Virus record (IMG/VR): IMGVR_UViG_3300025245_000001
Coordinates: 1-42,746 of that record
Origin: a virus
Direction: 5' to 3' (one strand)
DNA: 42,746 nucleotides
The notes below the pieces were generated by a model, which saw only the letters and a list, made by a program, of their open reading frames with translations, did no database searches and was not told where the DNA came from. Positions 1 through 162 of the stretch are shown here, piece by piece. The stretch's first letter is position 1, and the number at the start of each line of letters is the position of its first letter. The translations under genes were made by a program, and so were the position numbers.

Positions 1-162
1 TTGCCGTTGCCGTAGCCGTTGCCGTCGCCGTTGCCGTAGCCGTAGCCGTTGCCGTTGCCGTTGCCGTTGCCGTTGCCGTTGCCGTAGCCGTTGCCGTAGC
101 CGTTGCCGTCGCCGTAGCCGTTGCCGTCGCCGTTGCCGTAGCCGTCGCCGTAGCCGTCGCCG
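1..162. repeat. Hexanucleotide tandem array (NNGCCG), first part
   Basis: Twenty-seven uninterrupted 6-bp units, TTGCCG, TAGCCG or TCGCCG on the plus strand. On the minus strand they read GGC followed by AAC, TAC or GAC. The array joins the one at the window's right end (42551-42746) to make about 60 units (~360 bp). Purity at all codon positions except one base points to slippage or unequal recombination at DNA level. Copy number may be collapsed or wrong in the assembly, and this array is the likely reason the circle was opened here. Confidence 0.95.

Follow-up and report, generated by a model that had tools for sequence, protein, structure and literature searches.

FUS-type repeats follow a [G/S]Y[G/S] low-complexity pattern. 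The disordered, Tyr/Gly-rich segment of hnRNPA2, with its F/YGG motif, binds both RNA and DNA (PMC9067507). Coding repeats that combine homogenised units with selected positions are also already known: the zinc-finger array of PRDM9 is a coding minisatellite of variable copy number, whose mostly non-synonymous changes fall at few positions of units that read DNA (PMC3890296), and the spidroin repeats are homogenised at the DNA level inside one gene (PMC3933166). In bacteria, the Ser-Asp (SD) repeats of staphylococcal surface adhesins are dipeptide repeats with variable copy number (PMC3324548).

Here we describe a phage gene pair, one member of which carries a tail of strict Gly-X dipeptides encoded by a DNA hexamer array. 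The tail shares with hnRNPA2 and FUS-type domains the spacing of tyrosines by glycine and an expected disorder, a likeness by sequence only, and departs from them in its strict dipeptides, its hexamer array and its acidic residues, the last of which call for some caution over the hnRNPA2 analogy. The likeness to phase-separating low-complexity tails that had been suggested is likewise one of sequence. As in PRDM9, copy number varies and changes are mostly non-synonymous, but the units have two residues, the bulk composition is conserved and the order is near-random. DNA-level homogenisation inside one gene is shared with the spidroins, which differ in being animal genes for structural silk with large repeat units; the staphylococcal SD repeats are not known to have a Sm-like partner and are not phage genes. 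The literature searched contained no paper on DUF6948, the family of the partner gene, or on such phage tails, and the gene pair would appear to be without earlier description there.

A hexamer array at both ends of a phage record

The window, that is, the whole stretch of DNA analysed, comprises 42,746 nucleotides of a virus record that is entered in IMG/VR without end repeats. Its features discussed here are the following.

1..163, minus strand: left part of the hexamer array, 26 full units (Tandem Repeats Finder, pattern search and translation)
159..344, minus strand: N-terminal 'GAC-x-x-G' domain of the tail protein, 62 aa, start codon ATG at 344
347..613, minus strand: DUF6948 gene, 89 aa (Pfam PF22253, E 4.6e-24), stop codon TGA at 344-346
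40757..41416, minus strand: YqaJ exonuclease (PF09588, E 9.4e-17), downstream neighbour
41413..42219, minus strand: ERF single-strand annealing protein (PF04404, E 9.8e-22), downstream neighbour
42524..42547, minus strand: C-terminal end of the tail protein, (G)GSENEDD, with stop codon at 42524-42526 (translation of the joined frame)
42548..42746, minus strand: right part of the hexamer array, 32 full units (Tandem Repeats Finder); its last 69 bases equal window positions 1-69

Tandem Repeats Finder returned period-6 arrays of 27 copies at 1-163 and 33 copies at 42548-42746. Their coding strand is the minus strand, on which the units read GGC[A/G/T]AC, i.e. Gly-[Asn/Asp/Tyr]. The original prediction had placed the array at positions 1-162; the array is real, but this interval holds only its left half, the rest lying at 42548-42746. 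Bases 1-69 of the window are identical to its final 69 bases, an exact terminal overlap. If the ends are merged at this overlap the hexamer register is kept, whereas a GGC is lost if they are joined directly; because a direct join breaks the register, the record most probably represents a circular phage genome whose break point falls within the array. The figure of about 60 dipeptides proposed earlier agrees with the full units of both ends summed (26 + 32 = 58), but the merged count of 48 units (27 Asn, 13 Tyr and 8 Asp) appears more likely from the sequence.

The only variable base in the window array is the first of the second codon, as had been predicted, and CAC is absent. In its own genes this phage uses GGC for 59% of Gly and TAC for 38% of Tyr. 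All 13 tyrosines of the array are nevertheless encoded by TAC, although TAT is the commoner Tyr codon of the phage, and under its codon usage 48 units free of synonymous change have a probability of about 10^-22.

The tail protein

Joining the ends yields a single ORF of 165 aa, running from the ATG at 344 through the window ends to the TGA at 42524-42526 and encoding a 62-aa N-terminal domain with a predicted fold, followed by the Gly-X tail and an acidic terminus. The nearest relative (L347) is 66% identical over 61 residues, and its tail terminates in the acidic GGFSEDDED, which supports the joining of the two window ends. In an alignment of 19 relatives, T8, G16, A17 and G21 of the N-terminal domain are invariant and C18 is nearly so. 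AlphaFold2 predicted the domain as strand-helix-helix twice (pLDDT 88). We found no convincing Pfam match for it and only weak PHROG matches, which in three relatives were to 'tail assembly chaperone' (best E 8e-4). The model had no convincing fold match in the PDB (best Z 3.5), and the hit A0A8S5PZ12 in BFVD (probability 0.99, but E 0.15) was not convincing either.

As the sole query, the 62-aa domain retrieved no relatives from viral contigs or GenBank phages; relatives of the tail gene were obtained by scanning for the repeat and then by alignments. All 40 relatives fetched with two sub-alignments of the N-terminal domain carry the Gly-X tail. An orthologue with a 70% identical N-terminal domain is present in a prophage-like gene of Sphingomonas sp. 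Leaf32 (L216). In two loci (L078 and L152) the Gly-X tail follows a domain unrelated to that of the window, which presumably resembles DUF7666. Five phages (L064, L079, L100, L107 and L137) each have two or three paralogous Gly-X-tail genes side by side, with near-identical leaders and differing tails.

DUF6948 as the constant partner

The gene upstream of the tail gene is a clear member of DUF6948 (84.8 bits against a PF22253 cut-off of 27; 11 of 11 aligned members match), a family to which Pfam assigns no function. In the window sequence its stop codon and the start codon of the tail gene overlap as TGATG. DUF6948 lies directly upstream in 40/40 relatives found by the N-terminal domain alone. 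Conversely, a Gly-X-tail gene came next after DUF6948 in 78 of the 80 loci of a first set (the best 80 matches) and in 70 of 73 loci of a second, more distant branch, hence in 148 of 153 loci from viral contigs. For both branches the loci were drawn by pattern, ordered by similarity and cut to the best 80, so these fractions describe the sampled range and remoter DUF6948 proteins may differ. Of the five loci without a tail, three are on contigs that end at most 250 bases past the DUF6948 stop; L432 continues into unrelated sequence and L537 into another frame. The first set is not made of copies of one phage, as its 80 loci encode 68 distinct proteins in 64 clusters at 90% identity. DUF6948 queries gave no matches in GenBank phages, and among 398 Pseudomonadota genomes the family was found in one, the genome on which the search was centred.

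In the second branch the N-terminal domain is missing; a short leader stands before the tail, and a different C-terminal domain often comes after it. Since this branch keeps the tail while changing the domains next to it, the tail is the constant feature. The C-terminal domain, seen in L123, L482, L497 and L516, has the pattern YWLATI..FA.KW...IAFWRSD..G.PSNGG..APGV, and one example had no match in Pfam or PHROG. Of the 70 loci with a tail in this set, 25 have a tail frame that is still open where the contig stops. Such arrays thus commonly break phage assemblies, and the tails are probably under-reported. Many contigs of the same set, L469, L470, L473 and L489 among them, end a few hundred bases past DUF6948.

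Recombination genes around the module

It had been proposed that the tail stands in a recombination operon and might be a scaffold at recombination or replication sites, gathering Erf, the exonuclease or single-stranded DNA. In the window, L354/L355, L375 and L385, the tail gene is indeed followed on its own strand by ERF and YqaJ genes, and a Tyr-rich disordered tail with a Sm-like partner could act at single-stranded DNA. This setting did not prove general: among 40 contigs with the module, ERF was found in 6, RecT in 4 and YqaJ in 11, and a control set of 36 erf-anchored loci held no Gly-X tail. The genes scanned downstream of the module are varied, including methyltransferases, a polymerase processivity factor, exonuclease VIII and many of no known function. 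ERF and YqaJ are therefore not constant parts of the module, and the constant partner of the tail gene is DUF6948, not Erf. With annealase and exonuclease genes in a minority and such varied downstream genes, a role in recombination is possible but would not be the rule, and we regard the scaffold explanation as improbable.

Elsewhere in the window, a perfect 24-bp tandem repeat of 1.9 copies (2745-2790), which contains an inverted repeat, directly follows an ORF at 2371-2748; it is possibly an operator or a terminator. In L014 (2165-2506), and also in L013, a phage ORF with another type of coding repeat, RLSGRGIRH, is again close to a recombination gene, an Erf relative about 1.5 kb downstream.

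Predicted fold of DUF6948

The AlphaFold2 model of DUF6948 (pLDDT 95) has five predicted strands (E2-8, E13-18, E29-39, E64-69 and E72-77). A Foldseek search with it returned Sm/LSm chains with a probability of about 1 and E-values no better than 0.013. VIA-align ranked 3by7, from an uncultured marine organism, first (Z 7.0, 72 residues aligned, 3.1 A), followed by other Sm/LSm chains at Z 5.5-6.8, with 227 chains at Z >= 5, all values under the Z of 8 below which the tool itself warns that a match may reflect a common arrangement. Nearly all of its best 50 rows were Sm/LSm, with hardly any other fold. The model shares with Sm/LSm proteins the five-stranded small barrel and differs in a helix between strands 3 and 4, a C-terminal helix and the lack of detected sequence similarity: Pfam gave no Sm/LSm match, and a profile search of PDB sequences retrieved no Sm chain. 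DUF6948 is thus likely Sm/LSm-like by predicted fold, but not a member of that family by sequence. At Z 7 and with no sequence similarity, the resemblance may be that of a common small barrel. What is new here for DUF6948 is its fixed Gly-X-tail partner together with this predicted Sm-like fold.

Codons and residues of the arrays

The array DNA pattern occurs in at least 120 stretches of IMG/VR. A broader pattern that allowed every synonymous codon gave, among the matches listed, 88 arrays with 1719 units for analysis, and 62 of these 88 arrays are devoid of synonymous variation. The first base of the second codon in these units is A in 418, T in 787, G in 490 and C in 24; the suggestion that CAC is never used thus holds for the window, but elsewhere, among the matches listed, it becomes a strong rather than absolute avoidance. 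Wobble bases vary between arrays (mostly GGC-NAC, but also GGA-NAT, GGA-NAC, GGG-NAC, GGC-NAT and GGT-NAC) and are independent of local codon usage, with a pure GGT array (x53) where GGT makes up 13% of Gly codons and a pure GGG array (x49) where GGG makes up 14%. Codon bias was rejected as the cause of the fixed wobble bases, given pure GGG, GGT, GGA or NAT arrays in genomes that prefer other codons. Within an array, wobble bases are almost fixed, which bears out the predicted expansion of a 6-bp unit at the DNA level.

In 66 arrays linked to DUF6948, comprising 2406 units, we counted 26 minor synonymous variants, and at least 144 residue-type events against 22 synonymous ones. The founder Gly codon is GGC in 56 of these arrays, GGG in 5, GGT in 4 and GGA in 1. 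As it differs among relatives of one gene, the protein has kept its character through a renewal of the DNA. Tyr accounts for 1114 units (46%), Asp for 701 (29%), Ser for 14% and Asn for 8%, a composition that fits selection for a Gly-spaced Tyr/Asp mixture.

A dedicated writer, such as a diversity-generating or telomerase-like reverse transcriptase misincorporating at one template position, would suit an array in which five of six positions are nearly invariant and the variable one, independent between neighbours, takes A, G or T but almost no C. However, of 39 records with an array, one contains a reverse transcriptase (PF00078), whose linkage is expected for the target of a diversity-generating retroelement, and the window has none; the extra residues stem from few unit types per array (TCC, GTT, TGC), not from one randomised base. 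We consider such a writer very improbable.

Turnover of tail length and order

Closed tails of the second DUF6948 branch range from 6 to 80 units, and closely related contigs can differ widely. L383 and L384 (the L080 and L103 contigs) have 21 and 48 units between flanks at least 99.8% identical, the shorter array being the longer one minus 27 units, and L376 and L377 have 37 and 25 units between identical flanks. Copy number thus changes without loss of frame and is variable rather than constant among relatives, both as the original prediction supposed. Order can be replaced as well: L362 and L363 (41 and 49 units) are unrelated in order between flanks 97-98% identical, and so are L420 and L421 (33 and 51 units), where about 1.2 kb upstream is 98-100% identical and the flanks are mosaic beyond. 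The term 'hypermutable' is apt insofar as length and order differ between near-identical phages, but six contigs that are 100% identical share the same tail, and the order bears no signature of slippage.

Across 107 arrays the unit order has no autocorrelation (lag-1 z 0.45), and the 66 DUF6948-linked arrays slightly avoid equal neighbours (lag-1 z -2.8). Block repeats occur in a minority (12 of 84 arrays at p <= 0.05), which includes the merged window array (p 0.04). We take most arrays to derive from short-read assemblies; short-read assembly disfavours arrays with long internal repeats, some of which could have been collapsed, but this bias leaves the absence of short runs unexplained.

These data bear on the possibility that the tail is a functionless coding microsatellite grown by polymerase slippage. 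Bacterial genomes contain two kinds of array, plain ones of a single unit type and, in prophage-like genes such as that of L216, mixed ones; the plain GGCAAC, GGCTAC or GGCGAC arrays of bacterial chromosomes indicate that the hexamer can expand on its own. L213, L222, L223 and L246 have a plain chromosomal microsatellite, GGCAAC or GGCTAC, that is 12-14 units long; two of them, the GGCAAC loci L222 and L246 of two Pseudomonas genomes, are near-identical and share the flanking frame. The phage units, too, are identical at the DNA level outside the variable position, but the runs of equal units or short-period order of a slippage array are not found: the tails mix two to four unit types in near-random order, whereas simulated tandem duplication produced strong positive autocorrelation. 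Slippage was rejected as the source of the unit order on these statistics and this simulation. The retention of the tail by nearly all DUF6948 loci, despite differing founder codons, also speaks against a neutral array, an explanation already disfavoured and to which we assign hardly any weight.

Simulated unequal exchange within a population, combined with selection on composition, gave a nearly random order; compared with the real arrays, the simulated ones kept a little more autocorrelation and had about ten times as much synonymous change. The longest unit words common to unrelated arrays are about as long as expected by chance, with a slight excess at 10-13 units, and the idea that unrelated phages recently exchanged array segments was rejected accordingly. 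In view of the misfit of the exchange model and the lack of long words common to unrelated phages, recombination is a putative step.

Turnover of this kind could also reflect an arms race, in which the pair would be small early proteins for counter-defence or host take-over and the tail would bind or decoy a host protein. The genes are small, of no known family and close to DNA-metabolism genes, tail order and length are replaced between relatives with 97-98% identical flanks, and residue changes exceed synonymous ones. The lack of a PADLOC match is a weak point against it, as that library covers defence and not counter-defence proteins; a Tyr plus Asp composition that is kept while the order is random-like argues for bulk properties over sequence-specific recognition. 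We hold this explanation to be unlikely, though less so than the recombination scaffold.

Proposed role of the module

The reading we prefer, if tentatively and at somewhat less than an even chance, is that of a two-gene phage module in which a Sm-like nucleic-acid-binding hub is paired with a partner bearing a multivalent disordered tail, encoded by a founder-hexamer array and altered by in-frame recombination. The first gene (DUF6948) would encode a small protein, Sm/LSm-like according to its model, probably oligomeric and binding RNA or single-stranded DNA. The second, read from the overlapping start, would supply the partner with a long disordered Gly-X tail, X being mainly Tyr and Asp plus Asn or Ser. 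This tail would most likely form a multivalent brush, acidic and rich in tyrosine, by which nucleic acid or a host protein is held or organised around the Sm-like hub early in infection; since its net charge is negative, nucleic-acid binding by the tail is not favoured. At the DNA level, we infer that one founder hexamer would be expanded and that recombination would then add, remove and rearrange units without breaking the frame, the mixture of Tyr with Asp, Asn and Ser being retained by selection on the protein.

What began as an odd repeat at a contig edge thus leads to a widespread phage gene pair, in which a low-complexity protein almost always accompanies one predicted to be Sm-like. The arrays are evolutionarily unusual in that residues vary freely while synonymous sites are almost fixed and the order is near-random. 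It is tempting to speculate, although we think it rather doubtful, that phages rewrite or reshuffle the tail as a unit, its order being renewed far faster than by point mutation and with no duplications left behind. If true, this renewal might proceed by recombination between the arrays of many co-replicating genomes, and each lineage would display a near-random string of Tyr, Asp, Asn and Ser on a Sm-like hub, which would constitute a diversifying disordered domain of a new kind. The module makes it possible to test whether phages have an analogue of the Sm hubs with disordered tails.
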